Positions 24,592 through 38,858 of a DNA stretch of 64,000 nt are shown here, piece by piece. The first letter of the stretch is position 1. The number at the start of each line of letters is the position of its first letter. The translations under genes and the position numbers were made by a program. This DNA comes from Deltaproteobacteria bacterium GWA2_38_16 (GTDB lineage Bacteria; Bdellovibrionota; JACOXK01; 2-02-FULL-40-11): positions 1 to 64,000 of the forward strand of contig MGPE01000005.1 in NCBI GenBank assembly GCA_001797335.1, written 5' to 3'. Below the pieces are notes generated by a model that saw nothing but the letters and a program-made list of their open reading frames with translations, had not been told where the DNA came from and did no database searches.

Positions 24592-25632
24592 ATGGTAAAA
24601 ACAGAAAAACCAACTTTAATTCAAAAGCTTTATAAGATGATGGATATCTTGGCGCTTATTAATTCTACCCAAGATTTAGATAATCTGCTTCATTTGATTA
24701 TGAAAACCATTAAAGATGTAATGGAAGCAGAGGCAAGCTCTTTAATGCTTTTAGACCCTGCCACCAATGAACTTTATTTTTCAACCGTAGAAGGCGGGAG
24801 TAATAAAGTAAAAGAAATTCGTATTCCGGCTGGGCAAGGCATTGCAGGGCAGGTGGTAAAAACCGCAAAGCCCATCATTGTAAATGATGTGTCAAAATCT
24901 GAATTCTTTTTAAAAACGGTAGATAAAAAAACTTCTTTTAAAACCAAAGCAATTATCTGTGTTCCTCTGATTTCAAGAAATAAAACGGTGGGTGTCTTAG
25001 AAGCATTGAATAAAATAAATGGAGAAGATTTTACAGAAGAAGATGTAAAACTTTTTACGGCATTTTCAAATCAAGTCTCTGTGGCCATTGATAATGCTAA
25101 ACTTTATAACATGGCGTTTTATGATGGGCTGACCAAAGTATTTGTTCGGCGGTATGTTGAAGCATGGCTCGAAACAGAATATGCCAGAGTGAAACGGTAT
25201 AAAACCAATCTGTCTCTTATCATGTTTGATATTGATCACTTTAAAAAAATTAATGATACCTATGGCCATCAAGCCGGAGACTATGTGTTACAAGAGTTGG
25301 CTCAAACCGTTAAAGCCAATGTTCGATCCGCTGATATTATTGGGCGATATGGTGGGGAAGAATTTATGATTTGTCTTCCTGAAACCCCCATTGATAAAGC
25401 GTTTAATTCTGCCCAAAGGGTTAGGCAGGCTGTTGAACAAAAAGAGTTTATCTATGAAGGTAAAAAAATTCCAGTGACCATTAGTCTTGGGCTCACGAGC
25501 TTTCATGAATCTCCCGAAGACACCGTAACGAAATTTGTGAAGGATACCGACACCGCCCTTTACTATTCCAAAGAACATGGACGTAATCAAGTGACGGTCT
25601 TTGGCCAAGAAAAACTCAAAAAAGCCGCATAG
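24592..25632 (+). CDS. GAF-GGDEF diguanylate cyclase
   Basis: Makes cyclic di-GMP from two GTP. Residues 10-170 form a GAF sensor (LDNLLHLIMKTIKDVMEAEASSLMLLD, IPAGQGIAGQVVKTAKPIIVNDV, VGVLEALNKINGEDFTEED). Residues 180-340 form the catalytic domain: DIDHFKKINDTYGHQAGDYVL, the active-site loop GGEEF, and the allosteric RxxD inhibitory site (RSAD) five residues before it, so both catalysis and product inhibition look intact. No membrane segment, so it is cytosolic. AGGGGAGGGG precedes the ATG. The GAF ligand cannot be deduced. Confidence 0.93.
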   Translation: MVKTEKPTLIQKLYKMMDILALINSTQDLDNLLHLIMKTIKDVMEAEASSLMLLDPATNELYFSTVEGGSNKVKEIRIPAGQGIAGQVVKTAKPIIVNDVSKSEFFLKTVDKKTSFKTKAIICVPLISRNKTVGVLEALNKINGEDFTEEDVKLFTAFSNQVSVAIDNAKLYNMAFYDGLTKVFVRRYVEAWLETEYARVKRYKTNLSLIMFDIDHFKKINDTYGHQAGDYVLQELAQTVKANVRSADIIGRYGGEEFMICLPETPIDKAFNSAQRVRQAVEQKEFIYEGKKIPVTISLGLTSFHESPEDTVTKFVKDTDTALYYSKEHGRNQVTVFGQEKLKKAA

Positions 25633-27046: not shown

Positions 27047-28444
27047 TTAAGGTGAGACGGCAGTAGCTTCGGGATCTCCGATATTTAAAGAATAAAATTC
27101 ATTTTCTCGTGCGGTTTTAAAGGTAATCTCTTTTTGAGATGAAAGCCCTATTTTATGGCAAGTTGATGACCAGTATTCCCCACTGGATAAATCTTTTTGA
27201 CGAGGATCTGGAGTACATGAAAAAGAGGATTCATCTCCATACCAAAATATCATGTAGATAGAAGTGGTAGAAGGTCTGCAAAAGGGAGAGCAATTTTGGG
27301 TTGTCCCTTCATAGTGATATTTCTTGGCATAATTATATGCTTCAGAAACGGTAATGGTATATTGGGTGTCGGGTTCAAAAAAAGTATCAAAATAAAAAAT
27401 AGAAGAAATAGAATTTGTATGGCGTCCTGGGAGTTCTATTCCTGTTTTATTATTTTTTAATGTTACATTTCCAATGTATGCCGGATTTTCTCCCTCTCCT
27501 GGAAAAAGAATTTGAAAAGTGGTGTGCTCTTTGGCTAATTGACGAGCATTGGCATTGACATTGGGATCATTATTTTTATATTGCTCAATAAATTTTGGAA
27601 TACTGGTGTTAATAAGGCTAGAGAAGGCATCTACATCCATCAGTTCATGAAGCCTGACATTTTTTCTTCCTTGATGGGTAATATGAATAAGGGGCAATTC
27701 TCGAGGAATATCACAGGCAGAAGTGAAATAACTGGGATTGGAGGCAGGCATACTGGTCCTATCGGCTGTAAAAGATAAATTCGTTAAAGGTGTTTTTGTA
27801 GTGATGTTGGCTAGAGATTTTTCGAGTGAAAGATGAATCGTGAAGGGATTGCTTTGCTTATTGATGTAATCATAGTCTACAAAGCTATATTGAGCTAAAC
27901 AAACATCTTTAAAGATATTTCCATTGCTACACCCTTGTGAACCATTGCTTAAGGAATCGCTTGATTCTATCAGAGATGCAATTCGTTCAAAATCATTTCC
28001 CCATTCGTCTGTGTATATGTGGTTATATGTTTTTCGATCAAACCAAACAAAAGGAGTTCCCTCATGTCCACTTGTAAAAAGAGCTTCTTCACAAGAAAAG
28101 TTTTTATCCGATGGCCAGTATCCTAAGATTTTGGGTGCAGTGGATCTTGTGGTTTCTTTTTTATTAATGCATTCAAAGGTAATTTCTTGTTGTTCATCTT
28201 CTCCCCGATCATCGATAAAAATGGTTTTATAGAGGTACTGATCTTGAGTAAGGGTTAAAGGATCTTGATAGCCATCAAAATCACTGCAATCAAAAGTGGT
28301 GTTGTTATTGGTATCTACTTTTGTTGAAGAAATGTGAGAGGCATCTAGAAAATCTAAAAACTCTTGAGAAAAGTCTGCGTTGGCTAAATAAGGACTCAAA
28401 AATAAAGCCATCATGATGTTAAGAAAATATGTTCTTACTGCCAT
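27047..28444 (-). CDS. Secreted protein of unknown function, cysteine-containing
   Basis: Start is placed at 28444 (MAVRTYFLNIMMALFLSPYLANA, a signal peptide), with GGAGG four bases upstream; this gives 465 residues. The ATG lies inside the end of the lipoprotein gene upstream (10-base overlap), so the two are translationally coupled. Residues 320-400 include NVTLKNNKTGIELPGR and FFEPDTQYTITVSEAY, which resemble bacterial Ig-like domains of surface proteins. Several cysteines (such as QNCSPFCRP and FSCTPDP) suggest disulfides. No family recognised. Confidence 0.65.
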   Translation of the reverse strand: MAVRTYFLNIMMALFLSPYLANADFSQEFLDFLDASHISSTKVDTNNNTTFDCSDFDGYQDPLTLTQDQYLYKTIFIDDRGEDEQQEITFECINKKETTRSTAPKILGYWPSDKNFSCEEALFTSGHEGTPFVWFDRKTYNHIYTDEWGNDFERIASLIESSDSLSNGSQGCSNGNIFKDVCLAQYSFVDYDYINKQSNPFTIHLSLEKSLANITTKTPLTNLSFTADRTSMPASNPSYFTSACDIPRELPLIHITHQGRKNVRLHELMDVDAFSSLINTSIPKFIEQYKNNDPNVNANARQLAKEHTTFQILFPGEGENPAYIGNVTLKNNKTGIELPGRHTNSISSIFYFDTFFEPDTQYTITVSEAYNYAKKYHYEGTTQNCSPFCRPSTTSIYMIFWYGDESSFSCTPDPRQKDLSSGEYWSSTCHKIGLSSQKEITFKTARENEFYSLNIGDPEATAVSP

Positions 28445-29562
28445 GGGACCTCCCACTGGGTTTTCCACCAGGTATCTTGTCCCTGTTCCACATTAAAATT
28501 AGCGCCATCCCACGGAGCTTGTATTCCAGGAGGGAGGTATTCGTAACAACCATTGACCCTGGAATTTCCAGAAATTCCCTTAAAATCTGTGGGTTCAGAT
28601 CCCCACAACACTCGATGAACCATGACATTTCTAAAAATGACCTCTTGATAATGCCAATTGCCTTGAGGATCTTTCCTAAGAGGAATTTTCAAAGAAAGTT
28701 TTTTAAGAGTTGGAATATTTCCTGAGAGAGAAGGTTCTGTATGATTATTTTTAGCATCCATGGTTCGCCATAATTGTTGAGAGAAACGGGCTAAAACACC
28801 ACTTTTCATCAGACTTTGGGTATGAATTTTTGAAAAAGCATATCGATTTTGAATATTTTTAAACATCAATACATTTTGTGCAAGAGGAGGAATGCTCTCG
28901 GCAGGTCCTCTGGCCAAATCAAATTTTTTAGTTATGGTCAAATCTTCTTCAATGAGGGCTGAGCCTAGAAGGTCTTTTGTGTATTGAACTTTTCCAGAAA
29001 CAATTATTGGAACCACATAATTTGTTTCTGGAGAAGCTTGATATCCCAATTCATCTTTATCCCAATGTTGAAAATAAGAAGGCGTTAGGTAATTAACTTT
29101 AAAATTAATATAAATATTTTCAAATTTTTTTCCTTGTTTAATTTTTTGATAAGAACCCCCTATATTTTGAGGGGTGCCATCCATTGTAAATGCACAGACA
29201 GAAAAACTTGAACAGGGGATTTGAGGGGGAAATGTAACGCCTGGGAAACAGGTAGGGCCTCTATAGACTCCCGCTTCTTCTCCTCCACCGGCGGATCCAC
29301 TGCTTCCAGTATCTCCTCCATCATCGATAGAAGGCATGCCTGGATCCTCTATACCTTGAGGGTCATCTTGTGGCGGAAGAAGGGTACTTCCACTGCCATT
29401 GGGATCTATAGAATAAGCACCCGAGAGAAGAGAAGCCGAGGAAGTGACAGAACTGCCTCCACCGCCGCCTGTCCCCCCACCTCCAGTTTCTTTATCACCA
29501 CACGAAAGGATAAAGCAGCTAAGATTTATCAGTAAAATAAGGGTAAAAAACGAATTTTTCAT
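28435..29562 (-). CDS. Lipoprotein with Gly-rich linker, unknown function
   Basis: A 375-residue protein with a lipoprotein signal: hydrophobic MKNSFFTLILLINLSCFILSC, lipid-attachment Cys21 followed by GDK. Residues 26-110 are low-complexity Gly/Ser-rich (TGGGGTGGGGGSS and similar), a flexible tether. From about residue 110 there is a folded domain with paired cysteines (PTCFPGVTFPPQIPCSSFSVC). No family recognised. The gene is followed by, and overlaps, the secreted protein gene at 27047-28444; the two may be subunits of one envelope assembly. Confidence 0.68.
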   Translation of the reverse strand: MKNSFFTLILLINLSCFILSCGDKETGGGGTGGGGGSSVTSSASLLSGAYSIDPNGSGSTLLPPQDDPQGIEDPGMPSIDDGGDTGSSGSAGGGEEAGVYRGPTCFPGVTFPPQIPCSSFSVCAFTMDGTPQNIGGSYQKIKQGKKFENIYINFKVNYLTPSYFQHWDKDELGYQASPETNYVVPIIVSGKVQYTKDLLGSALIEEDLTITKKFDLARGPAESIPPLAQNVLMFKNIQNRYAFSKIHTQSLMKSGVLARFSQQLWRTMDAKNNHTEPSLSGNIPTLKKLSLKIPLRKDPQGNWHYQEVIFRNVMVHRVLWGSEPTDFKGISGNSRVNGCYEYLPPGIQAPWDGANFNVEQGQDTWWKTQWEVPWQ

Positions 29563-29719: not shown

Positions 29720-31831
29720 ATGAATAAGAAGTGCCCAATTTTTTTTGTTTTAAGTGCGACTCTTTTTTCTGTCCTCATTTTAGTAAATTGCGGTGGTAGC
29801 CCAAGTAATACAGAGAGCACCCTTGCGAGTCAGGAAAATACGATTTCAGAAGGAGAGAGAAAAGATACTATAATTGTAGATGAAATTGTAATTGTAGACC
29901 AGAATGAAGGAGACATTGTTTCTCCCCTCAGTGTTAATTCAGAAAATGTTGTGCTTGACTCAAGTACTCGGGAATATCCCATTTCTGTGAGTGGAGGGAT
30001 GCGTCCTTATACTTTTTCTTTGGGATCTTCTCCTAAAGGTTCTATTGCTATGGATGGGGATAGAGGAATTTATACTGCTCCTTTGGCTGGAGGAAATGAT
30101 ACGGTGACGGTGAGAGATTCAAAAGGAGCCTCTGTTACTGTACGAATATCGAGCCAAAACTCACAAACACAAATCATCTTAGATGATCTGGTGACTCCTT
30201 CTCCTTTGGTGATGAATCCTTCTCAGGTTACTCTGGTTTCAGGACGATATTTAACCGAATTCTTTCAATTTAATCCAAGCGGAGGAACTACTCCTTATAC
30301 TTTTTCCATATCATCTTCTTCTCCATTACATTTAGGATCTATTGATGCTAAAGGAGGATTTAGGTCATATACGAGGTCACCCAATGGAATGGATCCAACT
30401 TCAGATTTAGATTCTTCAGTTGCTCTTATCATTAGAGATAGTGCGAATCCACCTGCCTCTGTCACAGCGACTATCCATATAGTGGCGCCTTTGACACTGA
30501 AGCACACTATTTCAATTCCACAACGAGAAACTATTCGTCCAATCGTCATGGTTAACAGTGTTATTCATTTTTTGGCCAGTGGTGGGCATGCCCCATATCA
30601 ATTTTCAGTGTCTCAGGGAGCTGGGACTATTGATATTAATACAGGGGTATTTAGAGCTTCGCAAACTCCTGTCCAAGATGCTTTTGTGAGCGTAAAAGAT
30701 CAAGATGATAGGCAATACAAAATTTCATTTCATATTGTTAAAATCCAAGAAATTCAATTAGGCTATCTCCATAGCTGTGCTCTTTTAAATAACGGTACTG
30801 TAAAATGCTGGGGATGGAATCAGTATGGGCAACTGGGCATTGGAAATACCATCAATAGCTTAACTCCTGCTCAAGTTATAACTTCTAATGTTAAACAAAT
30901 ACAATTAGGCTCTTTGCATAGCTGTGCTCTTTTAAATGATGGTACCGTAAAATGTTGGGGTAATAATACTCATGGGCAATTGGGAAGTAACGGTGAGATG
31001 GGAGTTTCGCCTAATCTCACCCAGGTTAAAGAAATTCAGGTAGCCTCAGGCTCTAACCACAGTTGTGCTCTTTTAAATGACGAAACTGTAAAATGTTGGG
31101 GTGAAAATAATTATGGACAATTGGGAGATGGGACAACAATCAATAGATTTGAACCTGTTTTAGTAAAATTATCAGATAAAGAATTTTTAAATAATGTTAA
31201 AGAAATTCAATTAGGCACTGCTCACAGCTGTGCTCTTTTAAATGATGGTACTGTAAAATGTTGGGGTTATAATAGATATGGACAACTAGGTATTGTTGGA
31301 AGTGCTGCTAATAGTGCAGCTCTAGTGAATAGTTCAACTCCAGTTTCAGTTAAGGCGGATATAAATAATATGATATTAAGTAATGTTAAAGAAATTCAAT
31401 TAGGCGCTGATCACAGCTGTGCTCTTTTAAATGATGGTACTGTAAAATGTTGGGGAAGAAATTATTCTGGACAGTTAGGAAATGGAACTACAAGTGATAG
31501 CTTAACGCCGGTTCCAGTCACAGGACTGAGTAATATTCAAAAAATTCGAGTTGGGAGTGATTTTAGTTGTGCCCTTTTAAGTGATAACACCGTAAAATGT
31601 TGGGGTACTGGTGCGCGCGGACGATTGGGGAATGGAAGTATGGGTAATAGTTCAACTCCGATTCCAGTTACAGGATTGAGTGATGTTAAAGAAATTCAAT
31701 TAGGCACTGCACACAGTTGTGCCCTTTTGAATGATGATACTACAGTAAAGTGTTGGGGACTTAATGACCAGGGGCAACTGGGGAATGGAAATAATTCTGA
31801 TCGTTCAACGCCTTCTGATATTCAGTGGTAA
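29720..31831 (+). CDS. Lipoprotein with Ig-like repeats and a seven-bladed RCC1 propeller
   Basis: 703 residues. A lipoprotein signal ends at LVNC-GG (near residue 24). Residues about 80-335 hold three strand-rich repeats some 100 residues apart, each with an SGG-PY-FS motif (SGGMRPYTFSL, SGGTTPYTFSI, SGGHAPYQFSV), typical of surface Ig-like domains. Residues 343-703 hold seven RCC1 repeats, each with SCALL, VKCWG and G-LG; seven blades would close one propeller. Every repeat has a cysteine pair ten residues apart (eleven in the last), suggesting one disulfide per blade. Probably an outer-membrane binding or adhesion protein; ligand unknown. Confidence 0.88.
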   Translation: MNKKCPIFFVLSATLFSVLILVNCGGSPSNTESTLASQENTISEGERKDTIIVDEIVIVDQNEGDIVSPLSVNSENVVLDSSTREYPISVSGGMRPYTFSLGSSPKGSIAMDGDRGIYTAPLAGGNDTVTVRDSKGASVTVRISSQNSQTQIILDDLVTPSPLVMNPSQVTLVSGRYLTEFFQFNPSGGTTPYTFSISSSSPLHLGSIDAKGGFRSYTRSPNGMDPTSDLDSSVALIIRDSANPPASVTATIHIVAPLTLKHTISIPQRETIRPIVMVNSVIHFLASGGHAPYQFSVSQGAGTIDINTGVFRASQTPVQDAFVSVKDQDDRQYKISFHIVKIQEIQLGYLHSCALLNNGTVKCWGWNQYGQLGIGNTINSLTPAQVITSNVKQIQLGSLHSCALLNDGTVKCWGNNTHGQLGSNGEMGVSPNLTQVKEIQVASGSNHSCALLNDETVKCWGENNYGQLGDGTTINRFEPVLVKLSDKEFLNNVKEIQLGTAHSCALLNDGTVKCWGYNRYGQLGIVGSAANSAALVNSSTPVSVKADINNMILSNVKEIQLGADHSCALLNDGTVKCWGRNYSGQLGNGTTSDSLTPVPVTGLSNIQKIRVGSDFSCALLSDNTVKCWGTGARGRLGNGSMGNSSTPIPVTGLSDVKEIQLGTAHSCALLNDDTTVKCWGLNDQGQLGNGNNSDRSTPSDIQW

Positions 31832-31850
31832 ATAGGGTACGTCCCTATTT
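31830..31850. terminator. Bidirectional terminator hairpin
   Basis: AAATAGGG-TACGT-CCCTATTT forms an eight-base-pair stem with a five-base loop between two convergent genes. The A-run on one side and T-run on the other would let it act in both directions. It overlaps both stop codons. Confidence 0.6.
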
Positions 31851-34098
31851 ATTTCGTCTGCATGGTAAAAACACCATCCCAATTGGAAGCAGGGGGAGTT
31901 TCACCGTAGAGTTTACAGCGTTCGAGAAAAGTTTTAGTCGGACCATCTGTCGGAAATTTTTTTAAGAGAGTTTCAAATATTTCTAAAGCTTCAGCCCACT
32001 GTGTTTTTCGATAAAAAGAGAGGCCCTTTGAAAATTCTTCCAAAAGTTCAGGGGGTAGAGAGTTTGAACAGAGTTCATAAATTTGAACAGGTTTTGTTTT
32101 TCCTCGGGCACGAATGTAGTCTAATTCTCGGCAGGTGAATTTTCCTTGGAGTTGCTCATAGACATCTTGGCTAATAATAATATGGGTTCCATATTGTTTA
32201 TTGGTTCCTTCCAGACGAGAACCCAAATTCACAGAATCTCCAATAACGGTATAATCAAAAATTTTAGTAGATCCCATATTTCCCACAATCATGTCCCCCG
32301 TATGGATACCCACTCCGATATTTAAATGAGAAACTCCTTCTAGTGACCATTTTTGTCTTACGTCTTCTAGTTTTTGAATCATTTCTATGGCGCTTTGACA
32401 GGCATCCAGTACATGACTTTCGGTTTTTAGGGGGGCACCATACAGTGCCATGAGTTCATCTCCTACATATTTATCGAGCATGCCTTGGTATTTAAAAACA
32501 ATATCGGTCATGTCGGTGAGATAAATATTTAAAAGATGAGTAAGTTTTTCAGGCGAGATAGATTCTGAAAGGGTGGTAAATCCTCGGATATCTGAAAATA
32601 AAACGGTGAGTTTTCGTTTTTCCCCCCCTAAAGACAACTGCGTGGGGTGTTTTAAAATTTCATTGACGACAGCGGGAGACACATATCGTTGAAAAGCAGA
32701 TTTAATTTCCCGACTTTTCTTTTCTTCCCCAAAATATTTAAAGGCGTTTGTCGTCATAAAAACAAAGAGAAGGTGAAAGCCTGGAGTAAAAAAATTAGCG
32801 ATGATTCCTTTTTCAAAAAAGAATTTTTGATCGCAGACAGCATAAAGAATAATCATTCCTAGGGCAATGGTTCCGCACCAGACAGAACGGATGTAGGTAA
32901 ATAAAATTCCTAAAAAAAGTCCGATGATCAAAATAAAAAGCATTTCAGCAGGAACAGCTTCGGGCGGGCGGCCTAAATAGTGTTTATGAAGTAAATTTTC
33001 AATGATGGTGGCATTAATTTCAATGCCAGGGTGGGCATTGTCATAGGGGGAAACCCGAATATCTCCCACGGCTTTTGCGGTAACGCCCATTAAGACAATT
33101 TTATCTTTAAAAGTTTCAGGAGGTATTTTCCCGTTATAAATATCGGCAAAGCTAACCATAGGGAAGGTATAAGAAGGACCTACATAATTAATCCAAAACT
33201 CTCCTTGAAGATTGGTGGGGATGAATTCATTTTCTAAGAAAATATTTTCAATGCCATTAGAACCAAATTGGACCACAATTTCTTTATGAAGGGCCAGGGC
33301 TACTGTTTTTAGAGCAAAAGAGGGAAAAAGCGTATTTTTATATTTTCCGATGAGATGGGTTTTTCGAATAGTACCATCGATATCTGAAGAAATATCAAAA
33401 AAACCATGGTTGGAGGTAGCCTGGGCATAGGGCTTAATACTGGATTTGGCACCCATGCCGGTTGGGATTTCTTCCGGGGGATATCGAACCGTTGAAATTT
33501 TAGCAGTAATTTTAGAATCAAAAATATGTTCAAATTCTTTTTCCCAATCGGTTTTTAGTTCTTCAATATCTTTTTTTGAAAAATAAAAAAAGTAACCCAG
33601 CATAATGGGGGTTGTTTTATTAAGGTCATGAATGGTTTTTGAAAAATATTGATCGGTATCAGCTCGTTGAATTTGCTGGGATAGGGTTTCATAGAAAGAA
33701 TCTTTTGTATGGCTCTGCTGGTATTGGGTTTGAAGTTTTTGAAAGGTGGGAGCTTGAGAATTTGGATCTTGTTCTGAAAAAACCATATCTAAAGAGATGA
33801 CTTTTGGTTTGTCTTGGGTGTTTTTAGGAGCAATTTTTTTAAGGCCATCGGCCAACAAAGTTCTGTTCCATGGCCATCTGCCGAATTGCTCTAAACTTTT
33901 GTCGTCAATAGCGACAATGACAATATCATTAGAAATGGGTCTTTTCCCTCGGATATAAAACTTGGCATCCACATTGGTTTTAAGAGCTAGAGATTTAATA
34001 AAGGTAAAAGAAGTTGTTTTTTGATCGATTAAAAACGCAAAGGCCATAAAAATAAGAGTGATCACAAGAGAAATTTTAAAAACAGAAAGCTTAAACAT
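31849..34098 (-). CDS. CHASE2-domain class III adenylate cyclase
   Basis: 749 residues. One membrane helix (residues 8-25), a periplasmic CHASE2 sensor (about 40-370; VIVAIDDKSLEQFGRWPWNR, VISLDMVFSE, DKIVLMGVTA), three membrane helices (385-455), the class III cyclase domain (490-675) and a short TPR-like tail (685-730). Catalytic residues are all present: metal aspartates D503 (FSDIRGF) and D547 (YVGDELMA), the adenine-selecting pair K543 and D615, and transition-state N624 and R628. It should make cAMP in response to a periplasmic signal. The ATG lies eight bases inside the upstream phosphodiesterase gene. Confidence 0.93.
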   Translation of the reverse strand: MFKLSVFKISLVITLIFMAFAFLIDQKTTSFTFIKSLALKTNVDAKFYIRGKRPISNDIVIVAIDDKSLEQFGRWPWNRTLLADGLKKIAPKNTQDKPKVISLDMVFSEQDPNSQAPTFQKLQTQYQQSHTKDSFYETLSQQIQRADTDQYFSKTIHDLNKTTPIMLGYFFYFSKKDIEELKTDWEKEFEHIFDSKITAKISTVRYPPEEIPTGMGAKSSIKPYAQATSNHGFFDISSDIDGTIRKTHLIGKYKNTLFPSFALKTVALALHKEIVVQFGSNGIENIFLENEFIPTNLQGEFWINYVGPSYTFPMVSFADIYNGKIPPETFKDKIVLMGVTAKAVGDIRVSPYDNAHPGIEINATIIENLLHKHYLGRPPEAVPAEMLFILIIGLFLGILFTYIRSVWCGTIALGMIILYAVCDQKFFFEKGIIANFFTPGFHLLFVFMTTNAFKYFGEEKKSREIKSAFQRYVSPAVVNEILKHPTQLSLGGEKRKLTVLFSDIRGFTTLSESISPEKLTHLLNIYLTDMTDIVFKYQGMLDKYVGDELMALYGAPLKTESHVLDACQSAIEMIQKLEDVRQKWSLEGVSHLNIGVGIHTGDMIVGNMGSTKIFDYTVIGDSVNLGSRLEGTNKQYGTHIIISQDVYEQLQGKFTCRELDYIRARGKTKPVQIYELCSNSLPPELLEEFSKGLSFYRKTQWAEALEIFETLLKKFPTDGPTKTFLERCKLYGETPPASNWDGVFTMQTK

Positions 34099-34858
34099 GT
34101 AATAGTGATCCTGATTTTAAAATTTTAAGTCTGGGCATGTGAAGTTTTTTAATTTCAGCTTGGATTTTTTGAGCGTATACGGGTTTTAAATGGTATAAAT
34201 AAATAGGGACGGTTGGATGGTGTTTAATTTTTTTAATTTCTCGAATTACAGTTTCTACCGATAAATGGCGACTGGCCCAGGCAATGTCTGCTAAACCACT
34301 GGGAAAAGACACTTCTAAAAAAAGAGCTTTTAAATTTTTAAGGGTATTGACCTTTTCCCATAATTCTTCTGTGGGGCCTGTATCTCCACTAAAAACAATA
34401 GCTCCTTTTTTATCTGAAATGATATAGCCCAACGCTGCATGAGAATGAGTAACTGCAATAGCTTCTACTTTAAGTTCAGAAAGAGTAAGCGTGCTTTTAA
34501 TAGATCGAAGCTGATAGAGGGGATGTTCTAAAGAAGGGATTTTGGTAACATCTGGCCAAATGATGCCATTAAAAATATTTTTTTTAAGATCTGTCAAAAT
34601 GGCTTCAGAAGAGTAAATAGGAATGGTGGGATGCCCAGCTCCCGATAAGAAAAGATTATCTGCTAAAAAACACAGATCTTTAATATGATCTAAATGAGAG
34701 TGACTAATAATGATTTCTTTAATTTTAAGTTGTTCTTGAAGAGAAAGTTTGGAAGTGACAGAGCCTGCTTCAAAGAGCAGATGGTCATTGATTAGAAAAG
34801 CAACGGGGAAATATCCTTTTAATTCACCGCCATCGCATCCCAAGACCCTGATTTTCAT
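34091..34858 (-). CDS. cpdP: Class II 3',5'-cyclic-AMP phosphodiesterase (MBL fold)
   Basis: A 255-residue metallo-beta-lactamase-fold protein. HSHLDHI is the two-metal motif; then THSHAALGYII, FSGDTGPTEELW, LFLEVSFPSGLADIA and SRHLSVETVIREI. The last three reproduce the GDTG, (I/L)E-SF and HL pattern of class II cAMP phosphodiesterases such as yeast Pde1 and Vibrio CpdP, distinct from generic MBL hydrolases. It should hydrolyse cAMP to AMP in the cytosol. It is the first gene of a unit with the adenylate cyclase, overlapping it by eight bases. No Shine-Dalgarno is seen; a palindrome lies just upstream. Confidence 0.8.
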   Translation of the reverse strand: MKIRVLGCDGGELKGYFPVAFLINDHLLFEAGSVTSKLSLQEQLKIKEIIISHSHLDHIKDLCFLADNLFLSGAGHPTIPIYSSEAILTDLKKNIFNGIIWPDVTKIPSLEHPLYQLRSIKSTLTLSELKVEAIAVTHSHAALGYIISDKKGAIVFSGDTGPTEELWEKVNTLKNLKALFLEVSFPSGLADIAWASRHLSVETVIREIKKIKHHPTVPIYLYHLKPVYAQKIQAEIKKLHMPRLKILKSGSLLHV

Positions 34859-35019: not shown

Positions 35020-35044
35020 TCAAAAATGCCGATAAATAGAATTG

Positions 35045-37441
35045 ATGAAGTCATTATTTGCACAAAAACAGCCAGAAGATTTTACTAAGTTATTGAAATT
35101 ACATAAGAATGTCCATGTTCAAAGCATTGGATTTAAGGGGACTCTTTTTCTTCTCTTTTTATCTTTAGCCTTGGCTTTTGTTCTCATGCCTACGTTTACA
35201 TTACCTCAAAAAACATTGGTAGAAGGAGAGCTTTCTCCTTCCAATATTAAGGCGCAGCGGAGTTTTGAAATTATAGATGAGGAATCTACTCAAAAACTCA
35301 AGGATGCTACCGAAAGTTCTATAAAATCTATTTATGATTATGATCCTGATTTATATGCCAATACAGTTAAAAAATTATTTAAAGCCTTTGAGCGGATTCG
35401 AAAAGATGGGGTTTCTTCAGCAGGGGCCAAAAAATCATTTGAAGATGCCTTAGGGGGCCTTCGAATTGAGGACTCTCTTTTTTCATTTCTCGCTCAAAAT
35501 AAATTTAATTGGAAAATATCATGGAGTGTGAATCGGCTCTTAAATCTTTTAAAAAATCGCTATGTTGTTTCTGAAAAACTTATTTTTGAACCGGATGTGG
35601 ATCGTGGCATTGCCATTCGAAATATGGAAGACAAAAAAGAAACGTATTTTGATGAATTTGGGCAAATTTTAGATGTCAGCGAAGCCAAAAAAAGGGTGTT
35701 TCAAGGAACTCCAAAAATTTATCAAGAATATAAAGGGGAAGAGCGAAAATTTGTAGGGAAGCTGGCTGAAAGTTTAATTTCTCCTAACATTTCTTTTAAT
35801 AAAGAAGAGACCATGAAACGAAAAGAGAGATCTGCTTTGGAAATTAAACCTATTGTCATTAAGCTTAAGAAAAATGAAATGATTATTCGAAAAGGAGATC
35901 CTGTTCAAAAAAGACATCTGGTCATTTTAAAAGGGATTAAAAAAGAATTAACAGAACAACGGCCGGGACTTTTTATGTTTTTTATGGCTGTCTTCTTTTT
36001 CTTTTTCTTTCAAATTTTAGGATATTTTCCCATGGTTAACTTTTTTCATTTTAAGCCCTCTCAAAAAGATGTTTTGGTGCTTACGTTATTGATGCTCCTT
36101 ATTCTTATTGTCTGTCGGGGGTACTTTTTTATTGCAGGGGCCATTTCTGATAAAGTCGCATGGCTTCCTTCCTCTATGTTTATGTATCTTATTCCCATTG
36201 CTGTTGGTGCCATGATGGCTCGTTTTCTGGCAGGCATGGAAGCGGCTCTCATTTTTTCAATTGTGATGAGTGTGGCCTTGGGGTTTTTCTTGGAAAGAAA
36301 TTTTTTATTTTCCATGTACGCGCTTTCCAGTTCTTTGGTGGCAATGAATGGAGTGGTATCGTGTAAAGCCATCACCGATATTTATAAGGCGGGATTTAAA
36401 ACAGGGCTTATTAATATGGCGGTTGTCTTTTCTATTGTGACACTGTCGGCTTTAGGAACAACACTGCCCTATGAAGCTTTGGCCCTAGAAATGCTTTTTG
36501 GTATTGGGGCTGCTTTCTTTTCAGGAATATTATCCTCTTTCTTTGTGGTCACGTTAACCCCTCTTTTTGAATATCTTTTTAATTACACAACGGATATTAA
36601 ACTTTTAGAGCTTTCTAATTTAAATAATCCTATTTTAAGGGATCTGATGATTCGCTCCCCGGGAAGTTATCACCACTGTATTATGGTAGGAACTTTATCA
36701 GAAGCAGCAGCGGAGGCGGTAGGGGGCAATGCCTTATTGGCTCGAGTGGGAGGGTACTACCACGACATTGGGAAGATGAAAAATCCTCATTATTATATTG
36801 AAAATCAATTTGCAGGAGTCAATATCCATGACAGGCAGCCTGCACACCTTAGTAAAACCATGATTATGTCGCATGTAAAAGAAGGAGTAAAAATTGGGCT
36901 AGAGCGCCAGCTTGGAAAACCTGTGATTGATATTATTGAACAGCATTTGGGAACAACCCTCATGACGTATTTTTATGAAAAAGCCAAAAAAGAGTATGAA
37001 GAACGGGTTCAAAAAGATGAATTGTTGCCAACGGTTCAAGAAAGTGATTTTAGATATCCAGGCCCAAAACCTCAAACCGTGGAAGCGGCCATTGTGATGA
37101 TGGCAGATTCTGTGGAGGCTTCGACTCGGGCATTAAATACCTCTAATCTTTCTCGATTAAAAAATGTTTGTGAAAGAATTATAAATCGTTTATTTACCGA
37201 TGGGCAGCTAGATGACTGTGAATTAACTTTAAAGGATTTACATAACATTGTAGATAGCTTTTATCATGTGTTGGTGGGGATGTATCACCGACGTATTGGG
37301 TATCCAGGATCTGGAGTACAGGCAGAACAATCTTATGATTCAAATTATAATCCAAAACAAACAAAAGAAGATACGGATTCCTCTGAAAAAAGTGAACCAG
37401 TGGATCAAAAAAATCCTCTTTTTAAAAAAATGGGGTCATGA
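35045..37441 (+). CDS. pgpH: 7TM-HD domain phosphodiesterase, PgpH-like
   Basis: Members degrade cyclic di-AMP to pApA at the inner membrane. The 798-residue protein has a first membrane helix (about 28-48), an extracellular domain (50-305), a bundle of membrane helices (about 305-505; ILGYFPMVNFF, GAMMARFLAGMEAALIF), then a cytosolic HD domain with SPGSYHHCIMVGTLSE (H542 region) and YYHDIGKM (H573-D574). ATG 35045 is preferred to the TTG just before it. The conserved part ends near MYHRRIGYPG; the last ~45 residues are a polar tail encoded in another frame over ybeY. c-di-AMP specificity is inferred from the family. Confidence 0.88.
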   Translation: MKSLFAQKQPEDFTKLLKLHKNVHVQSIGFKGTLFLLFLSLALAFVLMPTFTLPQKTLVEGELSPSNIKAQRSFEIIDEESTQKLKDATESSIKSIYDYDPDLYANTVKKLFKAFERIRKDGVSSAGAKKSFEDALGGLRIEDSLFSFLAQNKFNWKISWSVNRLLNLLKNRYVVSEKLIFEPDVDRGIAIRNMEDKKETYFDEFGQILDVSEAKKRVFQGTPKIYQEYKGEERKFVGKLAESLISPNISFNKEETMKRKERSALEIKPIVIKLKKNEMIIRKGDPVQKRHLVILKGIKKELTEQRPGLFMFFMAVFFFFFFQILGYFPMVNFFHFKPSQKDVLVLTLLMLLILIVCRGYFFIAGAISDKVAWLPSSMFMYLIPIAVGAMMARFLAGMEAALIFSIVMSVALGFFLERNFLFSMYALSSSLVAMNGVVSCKAITDIYKAGFKTGLINMAVVFSIVTLSALGTTLPYEALALEMLFGIGAAFFSGILSSFFVVTLTPLFEYLFNYTTDIKLLELSNLNNPILRDLMIRSPGSYHHCIMVGTLSEAAAEAVGGNALLARVGGYYHDIGKMKNPHYYIENQFAGVNIHDRQPAHLSKTMIMSHVKEGVKIGLERQLGKPVIDIIEQHLGTTLMTYFYEKAKKEYEERVQKDELLPTVQESDFRYPGPKPQTVEAAIVMMADSVEASTRALNTSNLSRLKNVCERIINRLFTDGQLDDCELTLKDLHNIVDSFYHVLVGMYHRRIGYPGSGVQAEQSYDSNYNPKQTKEDTDSSEKSEPVDQKNPLFKKMGS

Positions 37442-37778
37442 GTCTCCTCCAGAACTTTCCATTATCTTTGTTTCTGATGCGGTGATTCAAAAGATGAATA
37501 AACGCTATCGAGGAAAGAATAAGCCCACTGATGTATTATCTTTCCCCGCTCCGTGTCATTCTGAGGCAAAGCCGAAGAATCTCCTAGGAGATATTATGAT
37601 TTCTGCAGAGACAGCCAAAAGAGATTCTAGAAAATTTAAAATATCATTTGACGAAGAGCTAAAATTTTTATTAATTCATGGATTTTTGCATCTGTTAGGG
37701 TATGATCATGAAGCATCTAGAAAGGAAGAACTTCGGATGCAACGACAAGAGAGGAAATTATGGAAATATTTGAAATAA
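37335..37778 (+). CDS. ybeY: Endoribonuclease YbeY
   Basis: YbeY is a metal-dependent RNase in 16S rRNA maturation and ribosome quality control. I start at ATG 37335 (MIQIIIQNKQKKIRI), which matches the family N-terminus and gives 147 residues. NKRYRGKNKPTDVLSFP and the zinc motif HGFLHLLGYDH are intact. Residues 74-84 (CHSEAKPKNLL) are encoded by a dispersed repeat that fills a variable loop between VLSFP and LGDI. The first 107 bases overlap the end of the pgpH-like gene out of frame, and the last 19 overlap prfB. Confidence 0.93.
   Translation: MIQIIIQNKQKKIRIPLKKVNQWIKKILFLKKWGHESPPELSIIFVSDAVIQKMNKRYRGKNKPTDVLSFPAPCHSEAKPKNLLGDIMISAETAKRDSRKFKISFDEELKFLLIHGFLHLLGYDHEASRKEELRMQRQERKLWKYLK
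37554..37584 (+). repeat. Dispersed repeat copy 1, inside ybeY
   Basis: GTCATTCTGAGGCAAAGCCG followed by AAGAATCTCC. It matches copies at 55268 and 57365, with a few extra bases in the middle, and is translated as CHSEAKPKNLL within YbeY. Confidence 0.8.
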
Positions 37779-38858
37779 AAAATATATTGTCTCAATTTAA
37801 AATTCGCTTGAATAACCTTCGAGGTCGTCTTTGACTTCGACCAAAAAACAGCGCGCCTTCAAGAAATAGAAAAAGACATCTCTGATTCTCAAATTTGGAG
37901 CAATCAATCCAAGGCTCAGGCTCTTCTTCAAGAAAAAAAGCGATTAGAAGATGTTATTTCACAGTGGGAAAGTTTATCTTCAGAGCTTTCCGATATTGAA
38001 ACACTTTTGGAATTAGCCGAAGAAGCCAAAGATGAAGCTTCTCAAAAAGAAGTTGAAGCTCAGATAAAGTTAGTAGAGAAAAAATTGGGAGCTGTAGAAA
38101 TTGAGCAAATGCTTTCGGGCGAGCATGATGGGAATAATGCCATTCTTACTATTACGCCAGGAGCTGGTGGGACGGAATCCCAAGACTGGGCCCAAATGCT
38201 TCTTCGCATGTATTTAAGATGGGCGCAAATTCGTGGATTTAAAGCAGAGGTTTTGGATTTTCAAGCCGGTGAAGAAGCCGGGATTAAAGATGCAACCATC
38301 AGTGTCACAGGATCTTATGCTTATGGGTATTTAAAAGCAGAAGCAGGGGTGCATAGGCTTGTTCGTATTTCTCCTTTTGATGCCAATAAAAAAAGGCATA
38401 CATCTTTTGTGTCTGTATTTGTGTATCCGGAAGTGGAAGAAGATGTCGCAATAGATATTAATCCTGCTGATTTAAGAATTGATGTTTTTCGAGCTTCAGG
38501 CCCAGGAGGCCAAGGGGTGAATACCACGGATTCTGCGGTCCGTATCACCCACATTCCCTCTAAAATTGTGGTGCAATGTCAAAACGAGCGTTCTCAGCAT
38601 AAAAATAAAGCCTCGGCGATGAAGATTTTAAAAGCGCGTCTCTATGAACTTAAAAAACGAGAAGAAGAAGAAAAGTTATCTTCTATTCATGCAGCTAAAA
38701 AAGACATTGCCTGGGGTAGCCAAATTCGATCCTATGTGATGCATCCCTATAAAATGGTTAAAGACCATCGCACCAAACACGAAACGTCAAATGTGGATGA
38801 TGTGATGGACGGTGATCTTGACTCTTTTATCCAAGCCTATCTTTTGTGGAAGAAGTAA
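37760..38858 (+). CDS. prfB: Peptide chain release factor 2, with programmed +1 frameshift
   Basis: The ATG at 37760 (GAGAGGA upstream) starts MEIFEIKNILSQFKIRLNNL and reaches an in-frame TGA at 37832-37834 after 24 codons. The context CTT TGA C after GAGGTCGT is the classic RF2 slip site: a +1 shift at CTT reads GAC and continues to 38858, giving 365 residues (coding 37760-37831 joined to 37833-38858). The body has the GGQ loop (SGPGGQGVNTTDSAV) that triggers peptide release and the SPF motif (RISPFDANKKR) that reads UGA and UAA. Low RF2 favours the shift, an autoregulatory circuit. Confidence 0.97.

Follow-up and report, generated by a model that had tools for sequence, protein, structure and literature searches.

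The window, the 64,000-nt stretch of DNA analyzed here (contig MGPE01000005.1, genome G000), comes from an uncultured bacterium that is related to the predatory Bdellovibrio and has a genome of 2 Mb. Two minus-strand genes overlap in it by eight bases (ATGTTTAA), as the first-pass annotation had read, and both open reading frames begin and end where it had placed them (Table 1). One PF00211 protein and one PF02112 protein were found in the whole genome. A promoter and terminator scan gave no signal over the shuffled expectation.

Table 1. Positions in the window of the overlapping genes, their motifs and domains, and a candidate partner gene.
Feature	Position	Strand	Basis or remark
255-aa MBL-fold protein, class-II cyclic-nucleotide phosphodiesterase type (proposed cAMP sink)	34858-34091	-	PF02112, PF12706, AlphaFold, Foldseek
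749-aa CHASE2-transmembrane-class III adenylate cyclase	34098-31849	-	Pfam; nearest PDB chain CyaB
Overlap of MBL and cyclase genes, 8 bases (ATGTTTAA)	34091..34098	-	
HSHLDH metal-binding motif, MBL residues 53-58	34685..34702	-	H53, H55, D57 and H58 invariant in 64 family members
NGIIWPD motif, MBL residues 97-103	34550..34570	-	Common to class-II PDEs
HLKP motif, MBL residues 223-226	34181..34192	-	HIK in class-II PDEs
CHASE2 extracytoplasmic sensor domain, cyclase residues 42-396	32911..33975	-	PF05226, 182 bits
Class III cyclase catalytic domain, residues 495-670	32089..32616	-	PF00211; K543/T617 purine, D503/D547 metal, N624/R628
GAF-GGDEF protein, candidate downstream partner	24592..25632	+	Convergent with cyclase in five relatives

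Convergent with the cyclase is a gene for an RCC1-repeat protein of 703 aa whose N-terminus resembles that of a lipoprotein (29720-31831), which, together with two genes at 27047-29562, stands between the cyclase and the GAF-GGDEF gene. Divergent from the MBL gene, positions 35042-38858 hold a gene for a PgpH-like 7TM-HD protein (c-di-AMP phosphodiesterase type) followed by YbeY-like and prfB-like genes; the PgpH neighbor is retained in other genomes of the window's family, f1.

Pfam scanning of the 749-aa protein matched both profiles proposed for it in the first-pass annotation, CHASE2 (PF05226) at 182 bits and PF00211 at 90.6 bits, and its closest PDB chain was Pseudomonas aeruginosa CyaB (E = 5e-40). 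The likeness to CyaB lies in the catalytic domain, where the DYT...GxxVN..SR region is the same in both proteins; the membrane domain of CyaB is MASE2-type, whereas the sensor of the window cyclase is CHASE2. One hydrophobic segment upstream of CHASE2 and further ones downstream fit an extracytoplasmic position of the predicted sensor. Residues D503, D547, K543, T617, N624, and R628 were invariant across 35 cyclase homologues. All but T617 had already been listed as catalytic, along with D615, which did not hold up: position 615 varies among D, S, N, A, and E, and it is T617 that is conserved instead. Because it lies seven positions before N624, we take T617 as the purine-specifying residue. 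In class IIIb cyclases a Lys/Thr pair predicts ATP use, and K543 and T617 thus form a Lys/Thr class IIIb site for which ATP is the expected substrate. The domains, these residues, and the match to CyaB support the original identification as a CHASE2 adenylate cyclase.

For the 255-aa protein, the first-pass annotation had proposed a class-II cAMP phosphodiesterase (PDE) and named RNase Z among the MBL groups that might prove a better match, and here the outcome depended on what was searched. PF02112 scored 42.3 bits, above its cut-off of 23.7, and was matched by all 24 family members scanned. With the single protein as query, however, PF12706 (Lactamase_B_2) scored higher (57.8 bits), Lactamase_B was also matched, and the top NCBIfam match was RNase Z, at 45.6 bits against a cut-off of 293 bits. 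A profile built from the 24 family members, by comparison, had yeast PDE1 as its best PDB match (E = 1.9e-17), followed by RNase Z (3e-14), YhfI (4e-11), and Apyc1 (1.5e-7), the last an MBL-fold anti-Pycsar nuclease. The AlphaFold model (pLDDT 95.8) matched the same four proteins by Foldseek. RNase Z came top by E-value, and YhfI, yeast PDE1, and Apyc1 trailed it by a few orders of magnitude at most; because these values are so close, the fold alone is not decisive. A search for phage relatives of the MBL protein by tblastn found none, and a relation to phage anti-Pycsar proteins such as Apyc1 was set aside.

Short motifs are more informative. The HxHLDH motif that defines class-II PDEs (PMC4222275) is present as HSHLDH at residues 53-58. 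Two further elements, N-x-x-x-W-P-[DN] and E-x-S...H-[LH]-[TS], are common to the family and yeast PDE1, and both occur together with a late H-[LI]-K in class-II PDEs of Microvirga and Novosphingobium; the segment reads FNDLIWPD in yeast PDE1, NWKAWPN in Microvirga, and NGIIWPD in the window. None of the three elements was found in 10 other MBL proteins of the phylum that we compared, and the WPD segment falls in a gap in Bacillus subtilis RNase Z and YhfI when these are aligned to the family. Ten residues (H53, H55, D57, H58, N97, W101, P102, H138, H198, and K225) were invariant in 64 family members. The HLKP motif is altered in one of these members, encoded in genome G002 (L034 6588-7370, identical to L024 5980-6762), where the metal-ligand residue H223 is replaced by Ala to give AMKP; it is the sole such case among the 64, and the adjoining cyclase is intact.

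Typical class-II PDEs (PF02112: yeast PDE1 and CpdP of Aliivibrio and Yersinia) share with the family the MBL fold and a matching order of motifs (HxHLDH, NxxxWP[DN], DTG, E-x-S, H-[LI]-T/S, H-[IL]-K). The window protein differs from them in being shorter (~255 aa, where the Microvirga protein has 329 and the PDE1 chain 369), with no signal peptide seen, and in its PF02112 score of 42 bits vs. 179 for a typical bacterial member; the family also differs in being encoded beside a cyclase or an HD-GYP protein. Compared head-to-head with the family, the Novosphingobium PDE scored no better than unrelated MBL proteins. Typical class-II PDEs are regarded as belonging mainly to unicellular eukaryotes, and Rv1339, YhfI, and Corynebacterium glutamicum CpdA have been described as atypical class-II PDEs that belong to PF12706 (PMC9293780). 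The window protein resembles the atypical group in size, MBL fold, and [T/S]HxHxDH (Foldseek E = 4.7e-16 to YhfI), unlike YhfI in having the IWPD segment, and only weakly matches the NCBIfam model for a cyclic nucleotide-degrading phosphodiesterase (NF041851, 26 bits of 400). The PF02112 match, the rank of PDE1 in the profile search, and the shared motifs support the prediction of a divergent branch of the class-II PDE type, which qualifies the earlier assignment, and a protein of this branch may hydrolyze 3′,5′-cAMP.

That RNase Z heads both the Foldseek list and, below cut-off, the NCBIfam list leaves some room for a divergent RNase Z or other tRNA- or RNA-processing enzyme whose place beside the cyclase is incidental. 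We tested this reading because the window's genome yielded no RNase Z match that reached the NCBIfam cut-off, although CCA is not encoded in 23 of the 30 tRNA genes examined there (loci L153-L182). In the phylum's divergent RNase Z proteins (L183-L186), a tRNA-binding arm of ~30 additional residues is inserted between the fifth His and the bridging Asp, whereas the corresponding residues of the MBL protein, H138 and D159, have 20 residues between them and no insert. The family has HLKP where arm-bearing RNase Z proteins have HxSxRY, and both kinds of protein occur together in five genomes (G179, G252, G275, G310, and G154); a further genome, G034, has neither. Other phylum proteins that came up as RNase Z candidates, at E ~1e-12, belong to other MBL groups. 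Given the missing tRNA-binding insert and the coexistence in five genomes, RNase Z was rejected as the main identity of the MBL protein. It is retained as a very improbable alternative because RNase Z went undetected in G000, in the other f1 and f2 genomes tested, and in the majority of the f9 genomes tested, and because many tRNA genes of G000 do not encode CCA.

The survey of genomes for adjacent CHASE2-cyclase and PDE genes that had been suggested at the outset turned up the pair well beyond the window. Among 369 genomes of the phylum searched, ~120 encode a family member at E < 1e-50, nearly always in one copy, and the family is sharply bounded, with other proteins at 1e-15 or weaker. We read the MBL loci of 59 phylum genomes and of four from elsewhere. 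Of the 59, 18 have the two genes next to each other, across 10 families and in two opposite gene orders: MBL-then-cyclase in G000-G007 and G018 (families f1, f2, and f11), and cyclase-then-MBL in G179, G251, G252, G275, G288, G310, G322, G112, and G321, the last with a GAF-HD-GYP gene between the two. Where the contig extends far enough, cyclase-then-MBL loci lie behind an rsmI or STAS gene. A class III cyclase was found in 18 of 19 MBL-bearing genomes tested; in the one genome without a cyclase match, G001, the MBL gene adjoins a CHASE2 open reading frame cut by the contig end. When 35 cyclases were placed in a tree, the two gene orders fell in different parts, the cyclase-first type in several. 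Recurrence in 10 families and two orders puts the layout beyond chance and, with the separate positions in the tree, makes a one-off accident unlikely; the association is either old or has been re-made.

The partners also occur apart. Many genomes have the MBL gene with no adjoining cyclase, and many have a cyclase at the rsmI locus with no MBL gene. At the remaining loci, the MBL gene lies mostly between rsmI and accD/folC, and in about one-fifth of genomes it directly follows a GAF-HD-GYP gene. In two genomes outside the phylum (L025 and L026, 4091-8056), trpA, GAF-HD-GYP, MBL, and folC genes overlap one another in a single run, which ties the MBL family to c-di-GMP-type signaling. Part of this pattern would be expected if the linkage were a side-effect of a conserved housekeeping block (rnhB, STAS, rsmI, accD, and folC) that signaling genes happened to enter, with the cyclase and the MBL protein not acting together: in most f9 genomes the MBL gene sits between rsmI and accD/folC with the cyclase absent, and in other families related cyclases stay by rsmI or STAS without an MBL gene. 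In f1 (the window's family), f2, and f11, however, the pair stands in the reverse order and outside the block, so that the association either withstands rearrangement or is restored afterwards, and we consider the housekeeping explanation improbable. The linkage supports a role of both proteins in one pathway; a self-limiting module set by a periplasmic signal, as the first-pass annotation suggested, would go beyond what it shows.

Taking the two genes together, we think it fairly probable that they form a conserved module for cAMP synthesis and turnover. From its place outside the inner membrane, the CHASE2 domain would sense a signal and control the cytoplasmic class IIIb cyclase, which would convert ATP to 3′,5′-cAMP; the cytoplasmic zinc MBL protein, as a divergent class-II PDE, would convert the 3′,5′-cAMP to 5′-AMP. 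Carried on one message, as the genes probably are, maker and breaker would be produced in a fixed ratio, which would keep resting cAMP low and let the signal decay quickly, and neighboring GAF-GGDEF or GAF-HD-GYP proteins, as candidate effectors, may pass cAMP on to c-di-GMP. The pair combines known kinds of protein and needs no separate category. Bacterial cAMP breakdown is poorly understood, and if the proposal is right, the only class III cyclase/PF02112 pair found in a 2-Mb genome would offer a clean system in which to study the effect of turnover on cAMP signals, and a phylum with predatory members would gain a cAMP phosphodiesterase.

To our knowledge, one-transcript pairs of a cAMP maker and breaker are not well described. 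The first-pass annotation likewise knew of no well-described pair, a statement that must be qualified by Sinorhizobium meliloti, in which one locus encodes CyaD1 (a CHASE2 cyclase), Clr, and a phosphodiesterase, SpdA (PMC4222275, PMC13001267). Although the prediction for SpdA was that it would switch the cAMP signal off, it cleaves 2′,3′-cAMP and not 3′,5′-cAMP (PMC4222275, PMC13001267). Like the window, this locus brings together a CHASE2 receptor cyclase and a phosphodiesterase gene; unlike the window, it has a CRP-type regulator (Clr), and its phosphodiesterase is class III. It is, in our assessment, the nearest precedent and also a warning about the substrate of the MBL protein. A Microvirga terrae plasmid (L121 4845-9164) also carries a gene for a typical class-II PDE and, ~1.5 kb away on the other strand, one for a class III cyclase, which adds to the case for the module.

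The MBL protein could instead be a phosphodiesterase of the signaling neighborhood that acts on something else, be it 2′,3′-cNMPs, cGMP, or a breakdown product of c-di-GMP. Besides the finding that the enzyme at the cyaD1 locus acts on 2′,3′-cNMPs (PMC4222275), across much of the phylum, as in L025 and L026, the MBL gene comes after one of the GAF-HD-GYP kind (c-di-GMP phosphodiesterase type) rather than after a cyclase, and Apyc1 is among its structural relatives. If 2′,3′-cNMPs were the substrate, the MBL protein might protect the 3′,5′ channel, as has been proposed for SpdA. SpdA, however, is a class III metallophosphoesterase of a different fold, and the class-II PDE motifs of the MBL family and the rank of PDE1 as best PDB sequence match weigh against this reading; we regard another substrate, all three versions taken jointly, as rather unlikely.

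If the pair is a cAMP module, candidate effectors are the GAF-GGDEF and GAF-HD-GYP proteins and one of two cNMP-binding proteins found in the genome (L089 and L090). No canonical CRP was found in G000, a point against the module. L089 (1369-2067), which recurs in f1 and f2 genomes, belongs to the CRP/FNR family and was set aside as a CRP-type effector because it has an FNR-like Cys pattern and lacks the phosphate-cassette Glu/Arg. In five relatives the GAF-GGDEF gene directly adjoins the cyclase gene in convergent orientation; in the window three genes intervene. A precedent for such an output is Bdellovibrio Bd1971, a cAMP-gated c-di-GMP phosphodiesterase (PMC6717892), which shares the phylum and the link from cAMP to c-di-GMP but has a cNMP domain and EAL where the window's neighbors are of the GAF-GGDEF or GAF-HD-GYP type. 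More speculatively, and with low probability, the make-and-break unit and its new bacterial class-II branch may feed cAMP directly into c-di-GMP control through GAF-GGDEF and GAF-HD-GYP proteins, forming a non-transcriptional cAMP circuit in Bdellovibrionota-type bacteria that have no canonical CRP. The other cNMP-binding protein, L090 (454-1821, minus strand), has 455 aa and is the one protein of the genome with a canonical cNMP-binding cassette, FGEAALLTGAPRNA, close to that of Bd1971, FGEMALIDNQNRSA (PMC6717892). Its cNMP domain is joined to two segments that score under the Pfam cut-off, one PqqD-like and one resembling an M50 peptidase (HEMAH), and the protein is possibly a cAMP-gated membrane protease.
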